Virus record (IMG/VR): IMGVR_UViG_3300032287_002552
Coordinates: 1 to 25,813 of that record
Direction: 5' to 3' (one strand)
Source of the DNA: a virus
DNA: 25,813 bases
Shown here: positions 4,147-18,054 of the stretch, in pieces
Position numbering within the stretch: position 1 is the first letter of the stretch
Layout of the letters: each line of letters opens with the position of its first letter
The notes under the pieces: model-generated
The model's input: the letters and a program-made list of their open reading frames with translations, nothing else
Databases searched by the model: none
Told to the model about the DNA's origin: nothing
Made by a program: the position numbers and the translations under genes

Positions 4147-4468
4147 CTCTGAAACTCTCCATCTCAGGCCGGTCATCTGTGCCTAGTTCCCGATGCTCAT
4201 AAGCCATCAGGAACCCAAGGCAACAAGCGGCGTGTGCCAAGTGCGGCAAGCCGGATTCCTCATCGCACTTCTGCCCAGTCCACCACGCCCAAAGGTGCCG
4301 CTGTAAAGCAGCAAAATACCGACTGTATTCTGCCCCCTGCGCCCAGTTGTTCGGCGCATACTTCTGCGCACCGTACTCCAGCACTCTGGCTGTTTCGTGC
4401 AGCAGTTCTGGGGGAAGCAGATCATAGCGTGGTTTGCCGCCGTCTGCCTTCTTAAACTCACTTCCCAT
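4136..4468 (-). CDS. DUF5664 dATP/dGTP diphosphohydrolase-like protein
   Basis: A 110-residue all-helical protein with the DUF5664 signature: KADGGKPRYDLLPPELLHE at about 7-25, VLEYGAQKYAPNNW at about 29-42, AALQRHLWAWWTGQ at about 53-66, and DEESGLPHLAHAACCLGFL at about 69-87. The family is annotated in Pfam as the dATP/dGTP diphosphohydrolase N-terminal domain and is related in fold to MazG-type NTP pyrophosphatases; Glu/Asp/His residues in the last motif would bind metal. It could tune dNTP pools during phage replication. ATG at 4468 overlaps the end of the polymerase gene by 11 nt. No purZ is seen here, so a 2-aminoadenine (Z) genome is not indicated. Confidence 0.75.
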   Translation of the reverse strand: MGSEFKKADGGKPRYDLLPPELLHETARVLEYGAQKYAPNNWAQGAEYSRYFAALQRHLWAWWTGQKCDEESGLPHLAHAACCLGFLMAYEHRELGTDDRPEMESFRDAR

Positions 4469-6404
4469 AGCGCAGTCCTTCCTTGGCCTCTGCTGCCACC
4501 GGGAACCCCTTGGCCCAGTCTGGCACTTGGCACATGATCTCGACCATTTCTTCCTGCGATCCCCAGGCATTGGGTACTTCGCAAATCACCTCGTCATGCA
4601 CCGACGCGATCACCGGATAGCCTCGCGGCTCCAGCGCCAGCATGGCACCTGCGATCAGATCGCGGCAGATGCCCTGCACAATGTTCTCGGTCAGCTTGCC
4701 GCCGAAGGTGCGTTCCTGCTGCCACTTGCGGGTGAAGCTGCTGACGGCCATGTATGCCAAAGCCGGCTTGACCCCAAACGGACCAGCCTGTTCGACCACA
4801 CGCGGCTCCCGGTAAAACAGCTTCCGGCCCGAAGGCAGGCGGACCATCAACCAATCCTTTTCGCAGCGGAACATCACTTTGCCGTAAGTGGTGTCATTGC
4901 ATGGGCGGCGCACTGCGGCAATCGCAGCGTCCTCCAGCCTGCGCCACAGCAGCGGGATCTGAGGGTAAAGGGTGCGGTAGGTCCGCACGGCCCGCTCTGC
5001 CAGTTCCTCGCTGATATGAACACCCATCGCTGCACAAGCCTGCCGGAAGCGCACCGCGCCCATGCTGTACCCACAACCCAGGATCACGGTCTTGCCAAGG
5101 AAACGCTCGACTGAATCTTTGCCAATCTCGCTGGGGTCCACCCCATAGATCGAAGCCGCCATGGCCTCGTAAACCTTGCCGCCGCGTGCAAACAGGTCCA
5201 CCAGATCATCCTGGCCCGCCAGCCACGCCACCCCTCTGGCCTCGATGGCAGCGTAGTCGGCCCAGATCAACCGGCTTCCCGGCTCTGCCACGATGGTCCC
5301 GCGCACCATCTGGGACAGGATGCCGGATGTCTCCGGACCCACCGGCAGGAGGGTAGCCTCCGCAGCGTCCCAGTCCTTGACGGTTGCGCGGGGCAGGTTC
5401 TGCAACTGCACGCCTGATCCGCTCCACCGGCCCGTACTGGCACCGTGGTACATCAGATTCCCCCGCACGCGGCCATCGGCGGACACACGGTCGAGCATGG
5501 CGGTGTACTTGGCTACGCTCGACTTGCCACCCTGGGCGCGAATGCGCAGCACGGCCTTGATATTTTCCGGCAAGTTCTCCTTGTTGAGCAGGTGCTGGAT
5601 GGCCTCTTTGTTCAGGGACTCATCGGACCCCTCGAACACGTTGATGCCCTGTTGGCTTAACCAAGTCTTGATTCCACCCACATTGCTGGCGGTCTTCACT
5701 GCGCCGTCGGTCAGCTTCTCCAGCGCCTCATTAAGCGCAGCCTGGGCAATCCCGGCCACCTCGACGGCCTTCTGCGCGAAAGCCGTGTGGATTCGCACGC
5801 CCCGGTCGTTAATCAGTTCAGTGTGCGCCCACACCGGCTTGTCTTCGCCAAGGTGGCGCAACTGCTTATCCAGCAGGCGCTCAACCTCTACGTCGGTGGC
5901 GCAGTATTGGGCGAGGCGCTGCATCCTTGGGGCATCCTCCCACCAGGTGCAGGTGCCTAGTTCCACATCCTCGCTGCGGGGCCGGCACATCCGCATCATG
6001 AGGCGGTGGCCCTCTGCGTCCTTCTGCACGTCCAGCCCCAGTGCCTGGGCCGCACCGTCCAGCGACCGGGGCAGGGCCATCCTGGCCGCTCTTGCCGCAG
6101 TGCAGTCCCATCGGTCCAGCGGGATGATAGGCAGTTGGAACTTATCCACCAGCTTGGCGTTATAGAGGGTGCGCTCAAAGCCAGAGTTATGGGCGACCAC
6201 GATGCAGGAGGGGTCGCAAAAGGCAGCGCGAAGAGCCGCAGGTAGAGGAGCTTTGAGAGGGAACCACGTTTGAATTGGTGCGTCGTCAACGGCCCAACAC
6301 AAAACTATGATCTCTGTCGTTGAGTCTTCGGCGTACCTATACACCCCAGATCGGCGCAGATCGACGGCGCTCCTCGTTTCTACGTCAATGTGACACCTAA
6401 CCAT
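4458..6404 (-). CDS. family-A DNA polymerase with 3'-5' exonuclease domain
   Basis: A 648-residue phage-type replicative polymerase. The exonuclease domain has ExoI D7-V-E9, ExoII around AHNSGFE (71-77) and ExoIII Y167-x3-D171. The polymerase domain has motif A WADYAAIEAR (D383, E388), motif B SVERFLGKTVILGCGY (K438, Y446) and motif C HDE (603-605). There is no 5' nuclease domain, as usual for phage PolA enzymes. All key residues are present, so it should be active and proofreading. The start overlaps the stop of the upstream HNH gene by 8 nt, so an endonuclease gene sits directly against an intact polymerase gene. It lies downstream of SSB and upstream of the dNTP diphosphohydrolase. Confidence 0.95.
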   Translation of the reverse strand: MVRCHIDVETRSAVDLRRSGVYRYAEDSTTEIIVLCWAVDDAPIQTWFPLKAPLPAALRAAFCDPSCIVVAHNSGFERTLYNAKLVDKFQLPIIPLDRWDCTAARAARMALPRSLDGAAQALGLDVQKDAEGHRLMMRMCRPRSEDVELGTCTWWEDAPRMQRLAQYCATDVEVERLLDKQLRHLGEDKPVWAHTELINDRGVRIHTAFAQKAVEVAGIAQAALNEALEKLTDGAVKTASNVGGIKTWLSQQGINVFEGSDESLNKEAIQHLLNKENLPENIKAVLRIRAQGGKSSVAKYTAMLDRVSADGRVRGNLMYHGASTGRWSGSGVQLQNLPRATVKDWDAAEATLLPVGPETSGILSQMVRGTIVAEPGSRLIWADYAAIEARGVAWLAGQDDLVDLFARGGKVYEAMAASIYGVDPSEIGKDSVERFLGKTVILGCGYSMGAVRFRQACAAMGVHISEELAERAVRTYRTLYPQIPLLWRRLEDAAIAAVRRPCNDTTYGKVMFRCEKDWLMVRLPSGRKLFYREPRVVEQAGPFGVKPALAYMAVSSFTRKWQQERTFGGKLTENIVQGICRDLIAGAMLALEPRGYPVIASVHDEVICEVPNAWGSQEEMVEIMCQVPDWAKGFPVAAEAKEGLRYGK

Positions 6405-6912
6405 TTCGCCGTGTCTCCCATCCCTTGCGAGCGGCTAGGCTTCTCTCTGCGGGAGTTTGAGCAGCGGCGGCCTTGCGAGCAATGCGGCTTCTCTCTGCGG
6501 GGGTCATACCCGCAGCGCGCTTGCGCATAGCTTGGCTCCTAGCTTCGAAAGGGTAAGACCGGTGCCTAATAGCATCTTGCGCGTTGGCGCTGCGCGTATC
6601 GTAACGCAAATTCTCCAAACGATTATCTGAAGCAATACCATTCCAATGGCAAACTTCGAGATTTTCTGGGCAGGGGCCGACAAAAGCGGCCATTACCAAC
6701 CTGTGTACGGATTTATCTCCTCCCTGCCCTAGATTTACCTGCAAGTGACCTGATGAATCTCGCCTAGGGCTAAGGGTTTTACCTTTCAACTTCCAAGTAA
6801 CTTCCTTTCCATTCCGAACCGCCATCACCTCTCGATCAAGAGAACGGACATTCCCCAGGTCGCTTACCTCGTAATGCCCTTCGTAGCCAACCACTGGGCG
6901 CCAGATTTCCAT
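6397..6912 (-). CDS. HNH endonuclease with NUMOD4 domain (free-standing homing-type)
   Basis: A 171-residue protein. Residues 1-30 carry the NUMOD4 motif (WRPVVGYEGHYEVSDLGNVR), and residues about 70-108 the HNH core HRLVMAAFVG...LEVCHWNGIASDNRLENLRY. The C-terminal tail has two copies of TPAERS with basic spacers, likely DNA-binding NUMOD-type helices. Such enzymes cut related phage genomes and spread their own gene. AAGGAA lies 7 nt before the ATG. The gene is visibly more AT-rich than its neighbours, sits between ssb and the polymerase gene, and is preceded by a highly structured RNA region, all consistent with a separately acquired mobile gene. The polymerase frame is not interrupted. Confidence 0.9.
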   Translation of the reverse strand: MEIWRPVVGYEGHYEVSDLGNVRSLDREVMAVRNGKEVTWKLKGKTLSPRRDSSGHLQVNLGQGGDKSVHRLVMAAFVGPCPENLEVCHWNGIASDNRLENLRYDTRSANAQDAIRHRSYPFEARSQAMRKRAAGMTPAERSRIARKAAAAQTPAERSLAARKGWETRRNG

Positions 6913-6939
6913 CTTGCATTTCCTTCAAAAGATCCACCC

Positions 6940-7063
6940 GCCTGACAACCCGCGTTGATCTCTCGATCAGCCCGCAGGTTGTCAGGCAAGGTGGCAGGGG
7001 ACCATCCCGTGTTTTACGGTCCCCCAACAGGCGCTGTCGGTCCGCTAGGCACCGACCACGGGA
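6940..7063 (-). ncRNA. structured RNA: pseudoknot plus long GNRA-capped hairpin
   Basis: Between ssb and the HNH gene the - strand can fold in three parts. (a) GGGGACC/GGTCCCC (6997-7003 with 7018-7024) closes a loop containing one half of TCCCGTG/CACGGGA (7005-7011 with 7057-7063), giving an H-type pseudoknot. (b) A small hairpin GTCGGT/ACCGAC (7036-7041 with 7051-7056) sits within it. (c) A 15-bp stem (6940-6954 with 6973-6987) is topped by a 5-bp stem (6956-6960 with 6965-6969) and a GAGA tetraloop. On the - strand the only non-Watson-Crick pair in the long stem is a G-U wobble and the loop is a GNRA type; on the + strand these become a C-A mismatch and TCTC. This argues that the leftward RNA is the functional one. 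Its class is unknown. Confidence 0.55.
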
Positions 7064-7076
7064 CGATTCTTAGGGA

Positions 7077-7634
7077 TCAGAACGGTGCGTCATCATCCCA
7101 ATCGTTGCCAGACTTTGCGCCCAGATCTTCCGCCATGGCGTCGAAATCATCCTGCGGGCGACCCGCTCCGCTAAACGGCGAATCATGCTTCAGAAGCTGG
7201 ATGTTCTGCAACCCGAAGCCCACGCCCTTGAGCACATTGTCGTAGGCGTATGCGCGTGCCGTGACCCGACACCAGCGGCCCGCATAGGCTTCGCGCTCGT
7301 CTGTCACTGGTTCAAGCGAGGCGTTGACGATCCCCGGCTGGCTCTTGCTCTTGAGCGAGATGAACTTCCAGCCCTCTGCGTAACCCGCGAGGTGGGCCTT
7401 GTCGCCTGCATCGCGGATGACGTTCTTGGCACCGTGCATCTGCTTGGGCCATTTCTTCTGGTCCGCACCCCACTTCTCCACGGCTGCGGCGTGCAGGGCC
7501 GCAGTCAACGGGGCGGTGTCGAAGTCAGGGGGGAGCAGGATGGTCAATCCATACTTCCCACCCATGTCCTCGCGCTGCGGCTGGAAGATGGCGGGAAACG
7601 ACAAGCGGCCTGGGCCAATGGTAATCTTAGACAT
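7077..7634 (-). CDS. ssDNA-binding protein, DUF2815/Enc34-like
   Basis: A 185-residue protein starting MSKITIGPGRLSFPAIFQPQ, the usual opening of the DUF2815 family, whose Enc34 phage member is an OB-fold ssDNA-binding protein similar in role to T7 gp2.5. The body contains the KYGLTILLPPDFD strand region and a conserved aromatic/basic stretch (YAEGWKFISLKSKSQPGIV). The C-terminus is strongly acidic and ends NDWDDDAPF, a typical SSB tail that recruits partners and ends in a Phe. It should coat single-stranded DNA at the fork and in recombination. It precedes the polymerase, with the structured RNA and HNH gene in between. Confidence 0.85.
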   Translation of the reverse strand: MSKITIGPGRLSFPAIFQPQREDMGGKYGLTILLPPDFDTAPLTAALHAAAVEKWGADQKKWPKQMHGAKNVIRDAGDKAHLAGYAEGWKFISLKSKSQPGIVNASLEPVTDEREAYAGRWCRVTARAYAYDNVLKGVGFGLQNIQLLKHDSPFSGAGRPQDDFDAMAEDLGAKSGNDWDDDAPF

Positions 7635-7661
7635 GCTGTGTACCTTTTCGAGATTGTAAGG

Positions 7662-8060
7662 TTATTCCGCGAACTCAGATGCGGCAGTGCGGGTCGCGGC
7701 TTCCCGACTGTCGGTCTCACGGGCCAGCTTCATGCCCGAGGATTCTGCGTCGATCAAATCAAACAGGTCCAACTGGATTCCCTGCTTCTTCGCCAGCTTC
7801 TCAGCCTGCGCAGGGGTTACAAGGTCTTCTGTCAGAAAACCGCTCAAACCTTCACTTGCAAGGCGCTGCTTCACCAATCGTGCATCCTTCCATTTGCGCA
7901 CGGCGCGCTTGGGCACCAGCTTCCAGCCGGGGATGTCCCGGCCATCGGCGATGGCAGTATACGCAAGCCCGCGCACGGCAGTAAGCCACGTCTCGATCAC
8001 GTCGGCGTTTTCCAGCACCTCGGCGATCTCGTCCTCAGACAGGTGCAGTGGCGAAATCAT
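7662..8060 (-). CDS. C-terminal half of split DUF2800 nuclease
   Basis: A 132-residue frame that matches the usual C-terminal part of DUF2800 proteins: a helical linker, then GRDIPGWKLVPKRAVRKWKD at about 36-55, corresponding to the family's PGYKLVEGRSNRKW-type motif, and a C-terminal tail. In the family this segment normally follows the nuclease domain in one polypeptide; here it is in another frame. An ATG at 8060 lies inside the end of the N-terminal gene (overlap 26 nt), with AAGGA about 9 nt upstream, so separate translation is plausible. A +1 frameshift near the GTC TGA at the end of the first frame would instead fuse the halves. Confidence 0.75.
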   Translation of the reverse strand: MISPLHLSEDEIAEVLENADVIETWLTAVRGLAYTAIADGRDIPGWKLVPKRAVRKWKDARLVKQRLASEGLSGFLTEDLVTPAQAEKLAKKQGIQLDLFDLIDAESSGMKLARETDSREAATRTAASEFAE

Positions 8061-14756: not shown

Positions 14757-14819
14757 TCGCCCCATGCGCGCCATCTCTGACCCCGTGCGAATTATGCCGC
14801 ACATCAGGTGCGCGATATT

Positions 14820-14904
14820 GGACGTGGACGTGGACGTGGACGTGGACGTAGACGTGGACGTGGACGTGGACGTGGACGTAGACGTGGACGTGGACGTGGA
14901 CGTA
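14820..14904. repeat. GACGTG hexamer tandem array with higher-order units
   Basis: About 14 consecutive copies of GACGTG/GACGTA. They are organised as two identical 30-bp units (14821-14850, 14851-14880), each four GACGTG followed by one GACGTA, and a 24-bp unit (14881-14904) with three plus one. Degenerate copies continue near 14922-14935 and 14951. All units are multiples of 3, so the array is open in frame with ruvC and could encode an Arg-Gly repeat if translation began at the GTG at 14808. No ribosome site supports that start. A repeated ACGT core could also be a protein-binding array. Confidence 0.75.
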
Positions 14905-14999: not shown

Positions 15000-15659
15000 A
15001 TGCGCATAATCGGGATCGATCCAGGCGTGACCGGCGCCCTAGCCGTTTTGGTCGCGGCCGGGGGGCCGGGGGCCGACCTATGTCGGGCCGATATATGTCG
15101 ATCCGATATATATCAAACCGATATATGCCAGCCCGATATAGGTGACCCCACATCTAGTGCTATATCGGATCGATATATACCAGATATGGGGCCGGCGGGC
15201 CGCGTGCCCATAGTGCCAGGGCCAAGCGGGGCCGGGGGGCTTGGCCTTTGGCGCCTGGCGGCCGTCTATGATTTGCCGGCCGTGTGCGAGCGGACAAGCG
15301 CCGGCAAAGCCAGACGGCATATAGACCCTGTGGCCCTGGCGGCCCTACTAGAGCAAATCGGGCCGGTAGAACGATGCATCGTCGAAAGGCTTTCGGCCCC
15401 GCCAGGGATATCTGGCATCGCTGCATATTCCCTTGGCGCAACCGCTGCCACCATCGCAACGGTCCTAGCTTTATCCGGCATGCGGCCCCGCCTGATATCA
15501 CCTGCAACCTGGAAGCGGGCCATGGAAGTGCCGAAGGAGAAGAATGCGGCCCGCGAATATGCCAGCTTGCGATTCGGTACGGCCGAGTATTGGCCCCGCA
15601 AGCTGCACCATAACAGGGCGGAAGCGGCCCTAATCGCATTGTATGGCGCGCTATCTTAA
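15000..15659 (+). CDS. RuvC-like Holliday-junction resolvase with internal repeat insertion
   Basis: A 219-residue RNase-H-fold resolvase. Catalytic D7 lies in GIDPGVTGALAVL, E129 in CIVERLSAPPG, and the end RKLHHNRAEAALIAL supplies the last metal ligands, with His where many phage relatives have Asp. The conserved SPATWKRAM block is also present. It would cut branched replication intermediates before packaging. Residues about 21-80 are an insertion between the first two strands that normal relatives lack; it contains five pentapeptide-like units (ADLCR ADICR SDIYQ TDICQ) and a copy of a dispersed 54-bp element. I start at the ATG at 15000, although only a weak GGGGGA lies upstream; a GTG at 14808 would add an Arg-Gly tail from the hexamer array. 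Codons ATA and CTA are frequent, unlike the structural genes. Confidence 0.85.
   Translation: MRIIGIDPGVTGALAVLVAAGGPGADLCRADICRSDIYQTDICQPDIGDPTSSAISDRYIPDMGPAGRVPIVPGPSGAGGLGLWRLAAVYDLPAVCERTSAGKARRHIDPVALAALLEQIGPVERCIVERLSAPPGISGIAAYSLGATAATIATVLALSGMRPRLISPATWKRAMEVPKEKNAAREYASLRFGTAEYWPRKLHHNRAEAALIALYGALS
15081..15140. repeat. four 15-bp tandem repeats inside ruvC
   Basis: Four consecutive 15-bp units (15081-15095, 15096-15110, 15111-15125, 15126-15140) each end in CCGATATA. They encode a five-residue repeat whose units read x-D-I-C/Y-R/Q, in register with the A(D/N)LxX pentapeptide-repeat pattern. The third unit, TATCAAACCGATATA, recurs exactly at 18025-18039, and TCAAACCGATA recurs at 17487-17497. 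Confidence 0.8.
15146..15199 (+). repeat. 54-bp dispersed element, copy 1 (inside ruvC)
   Basis: This stretch is the reverse complement of 18001-18054 with 46 of 54 positions identical by my count. Copy 1 lies in frame within the insertion of ruvC (residues about 49-67). Its core TATATCGG is the inverse of the CCGATATA units just upstream, so the left tandem repeats and this copy could also pair as a cruciform. Confidence 0.7.
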
Positions 15660-16118: not shown

Positions 16119-16237
16119 GCCGTCCACCATGCCCAGACCAGGGCCACGTCAAAAGCCCCGGCCGCCAAGATGCCAGCCCCGACAATGGCCCAATGCAACA
16201 AATCCATATTCCGATGATAACGCTGAATCCGATTCAT
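16115..16237 (-). CDS. 40-aa single-TM protein, first gene of mini-operon A
   Basis: Basic N-terminus MNRIQRYHRNMDLLHW followed by one hydrophobic helix AIVGAGILAAGAFDVALVWA. It starts directly after the conserved 55-bp leader shared with the 17.3-kb operon and is followed by the zinc-ribbon gene with an ATGA overlap. The start is supported by AGGGATAGG in the leader. Function unknown. Confidence 0.6.
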   Translation of the reverse strand: MNRIQRYHRNMDLLHWAIVGAGILAAGAFDVALVWAWWTA

Positions 16238-16327
16238 GATCCTATCCCTTTCCTTGGGGCCTCCATTGGCCCGCCCAAGGAATATGGCTGACTGCACTAG
16301 GCACGTCAAGCGCCATAATGCAGTCAG
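16235..16327 (-). promoter_or_regulatory. promoter/operator/leader module A
   Basis: On the - strand, TTGACG (16304-16309) and CATATT (16281-16286) are exactly 17 nt apart, a good sigma-70-type promoter. A perfect inverted repeat CTGACTGCA/TGCAGTCAG (16288-16296, 16319-16327) brackets the -35 box and would serve as operator. The transcribed leader folds into a hairpin (TTCCTTG...CAAGGAA with an inner GGGCC/GGCCC stem) just before the ribosome site. Positions 16235-16289 match module B (17344-17398) at 50 of 55 bases. Confidence 0.7.
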
Positions 16328-17244: not shown

Positions 17245-17346
17245 CTAGCGGTTGCCAATGACGGTTGCGTACAGAACGAATCCGATTCCGCCGGCCATGA
17301 GTGCGATATAGTAGCAGGCAAAAAACGCGTCGGTTGCGGCATCCAT
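17245..17346 (-). CDS. 33-aa single-TM peptide, first gene of mini-operon B
   Basis: The frame encodes MDAATDAFFACYYIALMAGG followed by IGFVLYATVIGNR, a single membrane segment with short polar ends. It starts immediately at the end of the leader module shared with operon A, with GGAAGGAATAGG as ribosome site. Its position and nature mirror the 40-aa peptide of operon A, although the sequences are not clearly homologous. Confidence 0.6.
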   Translation of the reverse strand: MDAATDAFFACYYIALMAGGIGFVLYATVIGNR

Positions 17347-17421
17347 GATCCTATTCCTTCCCTTGGGGCCGTCATTGGCCCGCCCAATGAATATGGCTTG
17401 CCCTACTAGACAAGGCAAGCC
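17344..17421 (-). promoter_or_regulatory. promoter/operator/leader module B
   Basis: On the - strand, TTGCCT (17413-17418) and CATATT (17390-17395) are 17 nt apart. A perfect inverted repeat GGCTTGCC/GGCAAGCC (17395-17402, 17414-17421) overlaps the spacer and -35 box, as an operator different in sequence from module A. The leader repeats the hairpin-forming GGGCC/GGCCC arms. CTAGT stands 3 nt after the -35 box exactly as in module A. Confidence 0.7.
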
Positions 17422-17511
17422 CCTATTTGCATCGCGCGCAATTTTCCGCCATGAATTAATTCGATTAGTCCAAACCTATTGATCGCTCAAACCGATAAGG
17501 GACTCACTACA

Positions 17512-17910: not shown

Positions 17911-18000
17911 CCTATTGATTACATTGGTGTCGGCATTTTCCATAATGCATGTTATGCGAACAACGTAGGGTTGTATGGCACAACGATTAGGAGAGTAGGG

Positions 18001-18054
18001 GCCGCCGGCCCTAGATCTGGTATGTATCAAACCGATATAGCACAAGATGTAGGG
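18001..18054 (-). repeat. 54-bp dispersed element, copy 2 (upstream of terL)
   Basis: This is an inverted copy of 15146-15199, 46 of 54 bases identical, located in the non-coding gap between the small-terminase candidate and terL. It includes TATCAAACCGATATA, identical to one of the ruvC tandem units. The two copies define an inverted repeat with about 2.8 kb between them. Confidence 0.7.

Follow-up and report, generated by a model that had tools for sequence, protein, structure and literature searches.

The ssb gene of this phage is followed, on the minus (leftward) strand, by a 137 nt structured element (positions 7070-6934) in which an H-type pseudoknot with a nested inner hairpin precedes a long hairpin, and comparison of three related sequences indicates that this pseudoknot and long hairpin constitute a real, evolutionarily maintained RNA structure. 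All positions refer to the window, the whole stretch of DNA that was analysed (25,813 nucleotides of the IMG/VR virus record IMGVR_UViG_3300032287_002552). The element may well act in cis as a structured, intercistronic regulator of an mRNA carrying ssb, a variable cargo gene and polA in a narrow clade of phages, a role that we put forward tentatively.

Overall structure of the element

Lying between ssb and the gene that follows, the element starts a few bases past the ssb stop codon. In the 5' domain, the S1 strand UCCCGUG (7063-7057) pairs with CACGGGA (7011-7005) and the S2 strand GGGGACC (7024-7018) pairs with GGUCCCC (7003-6997). Loop 1 of the pseudoknot accommodates the inner hairpin, GUCGGU-(9)-ACCGAC (7036-7056; arms 7056-7051 and 7041-7036), and the 5' strand of S2 is joined to the 3' strand of S1 by an A-rich connector, GUAAAA (7017-7012), which is kept as GNAAAA in the alignments. 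The 3' domain is the long hairpin (6994-6934), which comprises, from the base upward, 6 bp (CCACCU, 6994-6989, with GGGUGG, 6939-6934), a conserved bulged U, 15 bp (6987-6973 with 6954-6940, giving a 21 bp stem with the six basal pairs), a conserved 3x1 internal loop (GGC, 6972-6970, opposite A 6955) and an upper helix with its loop, which in the window are a 5 bp stem and GAGA. The base of the long hairpin, CCACCUUGCC/GGCGGGUGG, is unchanged in three phages, the window and the two IMG/VR loci L001 and L002, and the conserved unpaired bases of the element are ACAGCG, GNAAAA and UGCCACCUU. Every helix named in the first-pass annotation (S1, S2, the inner hairpin, the 15 bp stem and the upper stem) is present on the minus strand; its description of the extent of the fold holds for these helices but overlooked the six basal pairs and the 3x1 internal loop, the true span being 7070-6934.

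Comparative evidence for the fold

Searching viral contigs with ssb yielded 15 loci, and the element lies directly after ssb in two of them, L001 and L002, where the SSB protein is identical and 91% identical, respectively, to that of the window. Between the window and L002, 39 of the 39 pairs of the five helices stay standard despite 20 changed paired bases, and in nine pairs both partners have changed, among them two in S1 (of six core pairs), two in S2 and two in the inner hairpin. When the same number of changes was placed at random, a mean of 25 pairs and a maximum of 35 pairs were kept in 200,000 draws, against the 39 observed; for the pseudoknot domain alone, this null gives P ~1e-5. 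In the long hairpin, seven of the 21 stem pairs are double-changed. The three-row alignment A3, from which S2 was omitted since the aligner shifts its register and in which two N letters were put into the upper stem of the window to align it, contains double changes in 11 of 39 pairs, against a shuffle mean of 4.3 (0 of 500 shuffles reach 11), and sliding the partners lowers the paired cells from 99% to 35-44%. The covariation that had been proposed for inspection in homologous regions is present: among three sequences, of which the window and L001 are identical in the 5' domain, pairing is kept by compensatory change in all main helices.

The window and L001 do not differ in the 91 nt that follow ssb, whereas within ssb, which encodes an identical protein, 43 of 558 DNA sites differ; at the ssb rate, 91 unchanged sites would be expected with P ~7e-4. 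Recombination could contribute to this identity too, since the two match less well from a point inside the 3' hairpin up to and including the N-terminal part of polA.

The fold of the leftward strand has a z-score of -5.5 against shuffles, and 0 of 200 shuffles equal it. Folding without pseudoknots favours an 11 bp extension of S1, so that the pseudoknot itself rests on the comparison. Strong palindromes occur on both strands and, together with the replication-gene neighbourhood and the DNA-level role discussed for the STAXI motifs that lie close to ssb genes (PMC2864571), they would suit a signal in single-stranded DNA, the folded strand serving as an origin, priming or assembly site in replication. 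We consider such a signal clearly unlikely, because alignment A3, read on the leftward strand, contains six G-U cells and none that are A-C, and these six would be mismatches on the opposite strand, because a pseudoknot differs from the cruciforms usual in DNA and because the position of the element is tied to the ssb stop. Selection thus appears to act on the RNA and not on the DNA, as had been argued in the first-pass annotation, to judge from the compensatory changes in both pseudoknot stems and the G-U pairs found solely on the leftward strand. The accompanying argument from a GNRA tetraloop falls away, since the loop has 3 nt in L001 and L002 and GNRA is not conserved.

Genomic context and distribution

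The upstream gene, ssb (7077-7634, minus strand), encodes an Enc34-type/Gp2.5-like ssDNA-binding protein (PF10991, 4.4e-30; phrog_112, 2.3e-38), and the conserved downstream gene is polA (4458-6404, minus strand), encoding a family A DNA polymerase (PF00476, 7.7e-25). Between the RNA and polA the window carries, as variable cargo, a NUMOD4-HNH endonuclease gene (6397-6912, minus strand; PF07463, PF13392). The gene after the RNA is this HNH gene in the window, polA itself in L001 and a DNA methyltransferase gene in L002 (phrog_799, 4.9e-56), and in L007-L009, which have simple hairpins and no element, a C5 DNA methylase gene comes next. These three different genes, together with the methylase of L007-L009, mark the slot before polA as a cargo insertion site. 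The RNA goes with ssb, and the following gene changes independently.

The proposal that the RNA was mobilized together with the HNH endonuclease is consistent with the element directly preceding the HNH gene in the window and with the divergence of both HNH flanks from L001 (35 of 50 matches at 7000-6951 and 26-36 of 50 at 6400-6101), which is compatible with co-conversion of the flanks on HNH transfer. However, the RNA occurs without HNH in L001, where polA is next, and in L002, where the methyltransferase is next, which largely refutes this proposal, and the nearest relatives of the HNH gene, in Gordonia phages, sit in an unrelated tail-gene setting; mobilization with HNH is therefore very improbable indeed. 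As HNH is replaceable cargo, annotating the RNA as belonging to a homing element would be unwarranted.

The start of the HNH gene (6820-6909) has 74% identity over 90 nt to HNH genes beside tail genes in Gordonia phages, a similarity that suggests wide transfer of the gene. The region upstream of the Gordonia HNH genes was considered as a source of the RNA and rejected, as it leaves merely 70 nt to the preceding gene and its neighbours are unrelated. Divergence on either side of HNH is mosaic, with low identity to L001 at 6400-5700 and 7000-6934, and the N-terminal part of the window polA is nearer to L002 than to L001, which is likewise compatible with flank co-conversion during HNH transfer.

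The covariance model R1, built from the window, L001 and L002, scores 150.7, 161 and 141.5 bits on these sequences, respectively. It found no further copy in ~960 kb of relatives, 80 genome loci and 30 whole records, and none in >560 bacterial genomes from the classes to which a Porphyrobacter and an Acidovorax genome belong, a result of little weight because these classes were guesses at the host. Protein scans with ssb, polA and helicase and four DNA patterns in viral contigs gave no copy beyond the same three; one DNA pattern in genome contigs added none among the matches listed, and named phages found by DNA similarity had no match in the RNA. A weak R1 match at 18102-18002 of the window is the palindrome of another repeat and was set aside. 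The distribution is narrow, and the element appears to be clade-specific, with three copies found.

Comparison with known RNA classes

A cmscan search of Rfam to E = 10 with the window and L002 regions gave no credible match, in keeping with the earlier remark that the RNA fits no known class; just weak hairpin matches were returned, mostly to microRNA models, all far below the gathering scores. There was no Rfam match to a group I intron model with a P3-P8 core, and none to E = 10 to HDV-like, hammerhead, twister, pistol or hatchet ribozyme models. The compact, pseudoknotted fold and its conserved unpaired bases would accord with a free-standing RNA that has a function of its own, be it a small ribozyme, a phage RNA acting in trans or the relic of an intron, and the order S1-hairpin-S2-S1'-S2' is similar to that of P3/P7 in group I cores. 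That no Rfam family, including ribozymes and group I introns, gave a credible match speaks against this origin, as does the spacing of 1-2 nt between the 3' strands of S1 and S2, which leaves no room for a P8-like element; the suggestion of a small ribozyme or intron remnant finds no support here. In addition, no sigma-70-like promoter was found at 6300-7800 by a scan limited to the sigma-70 type, which argues against an independent RNA gene; the three copies seem to have no terminator in common, and they always occur in one mRNA context. A free-standing RNA is hence distinctly improbable.

STAXI (RF01728), a candidate RNA of unknown function listed for Enterobacteriales (Weinberg et al. 2010, PMC2864571), is likewise based on a pseudoknot and is often near ssb or other DNA-handling genes, comparable to the position here directly after ssb (PF10991). 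The STAXI pseudoknot is, however, repeated in tandem two to three times, whereas each locus here (three of three copies) has one pseudoknot with a nested hairpin and a long stem, and STAXI is absent from the cmscan list to E = 10 for the window and L002 regions. The L17 downstream element (RF01708, PMC2864571) is similar in being a structured RNA apparently in the 3' UTR of the preceding gene, whereas its sequence, structure, gene and hosts are all unrelated.

Phage T4 regulates gene 32 (gp32) via a leader pseudoknot and gene 43 (gp43) via an operator hairpin (PMC3014915), both genes, for an SSB and a polymerase, having structured elements in their mRNAs. By analogy, the phage SSB or polymerase might bind the pseudoknot or hairpin and control translation or decay of the mRNA, since the element sits in the interval from ssb to polA, and the conserved GGC/A internal loop and the A-rich connector could be the contact points. 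Nevertheless, the T4 elements lie upstream of the regulated gene and are bound by its product, whereas here the topology is another, binding is hypothetical and the element follows the ssb stop in the window, L001 and L002, and so does not occupy a 5' leader position of the gene 32 type. Moreover, an HNH or methyltransferase gene separates the element from polA in two of the three phages, and the SSB and polymerase are from other families than those of T4. Such a protein-binding operator is possible but unlikely.

Structure at the ssb gap in relatives

In relatives whose ssb is 63-82% identical, the ssb gap contains two plain hairpins and no pseudoknot. Two stem-loops occupy the gap in L003-L014 and L017, the first spanning the ssb stop and the second being GC-rich, and the arms of the first covary among relatives (GGGACGAC/GUCGUUCC, GGGACAAC/GUUGUCCC). 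The two-hairpin ssb-polA gaps (L003-L014 and MW202496) share with the element the locus, a structured RNA after the ssb stop and the arms of a hairpin termed H1; they differ in that their hairpins are plain, contain none of the conserved motifs and are not detected by R1. A terminator-like hairpin with a U tract is located at the ssb gap of phiM5, and the gap is 2 nt in one distant phage. The stem-loops in relatives and the phiM5 hairpin mark structure as a trait of this site behind ssb.

In the window, H1 (7060-7099, minus strand) is an alternative hairpin across the ssb stop, formed by GGGAUGAU (7099-7092) and AUCGUCCC (7067-7060), and it shares UCCC with S1. Its 8 bp arms are intact in L001, L003-L007, L010 and L014, with six of eight pairs in L002 and one U-G in the window arm. 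In the window clade H1 and S1 are mutually exclusive, because the 3' arm of the one and the 5' strand of the other share bases. Most H1 carriers (L001, L003-L014 and L017) have a C-rich loop directly after the ssb stop, which could be a Rho or anti-Shine-Dalgarno-like element.

Proposed function

A spacer between ssb and the downstream genes, suggested in the first-pass annotation as a leader, is still the best option. Long intercistronic hairpins after a gene, with two helical turns and an internal loop, are familiar as phage RNase III processing stems and sib-type retroregulators of lambda; the long hairpin is alike, whereas here a covarying pseudoknot precedes it. The two rigid domains would provide a protected and possibly processed 3' end of the ssb mRNA, the long hairpin being of the size cut by RNase III, with a stem length and internal loop compatible with such processing, and/or they may act as a leaky terminator limiting read-through to the downstream genes. 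Abundant SSB and scarce polymerase or cargo products could then come from one operon. The UCCC after the stop would have two alternative partners, one upstream in the end of ssb (H1) and one downstream in the pseudoknot (S1), and translation of ssb up to its stop could favour the pseudoknot over H1.

A U-rich tract directly follows the hairpin in the window (AUCUUUUG) and L001 (GUUUUUCA), and a scan for the intrinsic-terminator consensus listed none on the leftward strand. No U tract is present there in L002, so that simple termination seems not to be a function common to the three. The pseudoknot seems not to be explained by a role at the mRNA end alone, a plain hairpin seeming to be enough in relatives. 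Stop-codon read-through was also considered: the window meets an in-frame UAA in the A-rich connector after 20 codons and the stop context of L002 differs (by eye), so there is no shared recoding signal. A new class of phage RNA that links translation of ssb to polymerase and cargo expression, either as a ligand- or protein-sensing switch between H1 and S1 or as a ribozyme, seems quite unlikely.

This covariation-supported RNA is absent from Rfam and lies at a replication-gene junction where related phages have simpler stem-loops. It makes testable how phages set the SSB:polymerase ratio from one operon, and whether such pseudoknots go beyond the T4 gene 32 case.

Other repeats in the window

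A (TGGACG)14 array and a palindromic 15-nt array, at 14819-14903 and 15070-15201, lie inside an open reading frame for a probable RuvC-like protein, a call made by eye with no Pfam match. A 56-nt inverted copy (86%) is found at 17999-18054, 2.8 kb from the arrays, and two 83-nt direct repeats (16232-16314 and 17341-17423), 82% identical, lie 1.1 kb apart.
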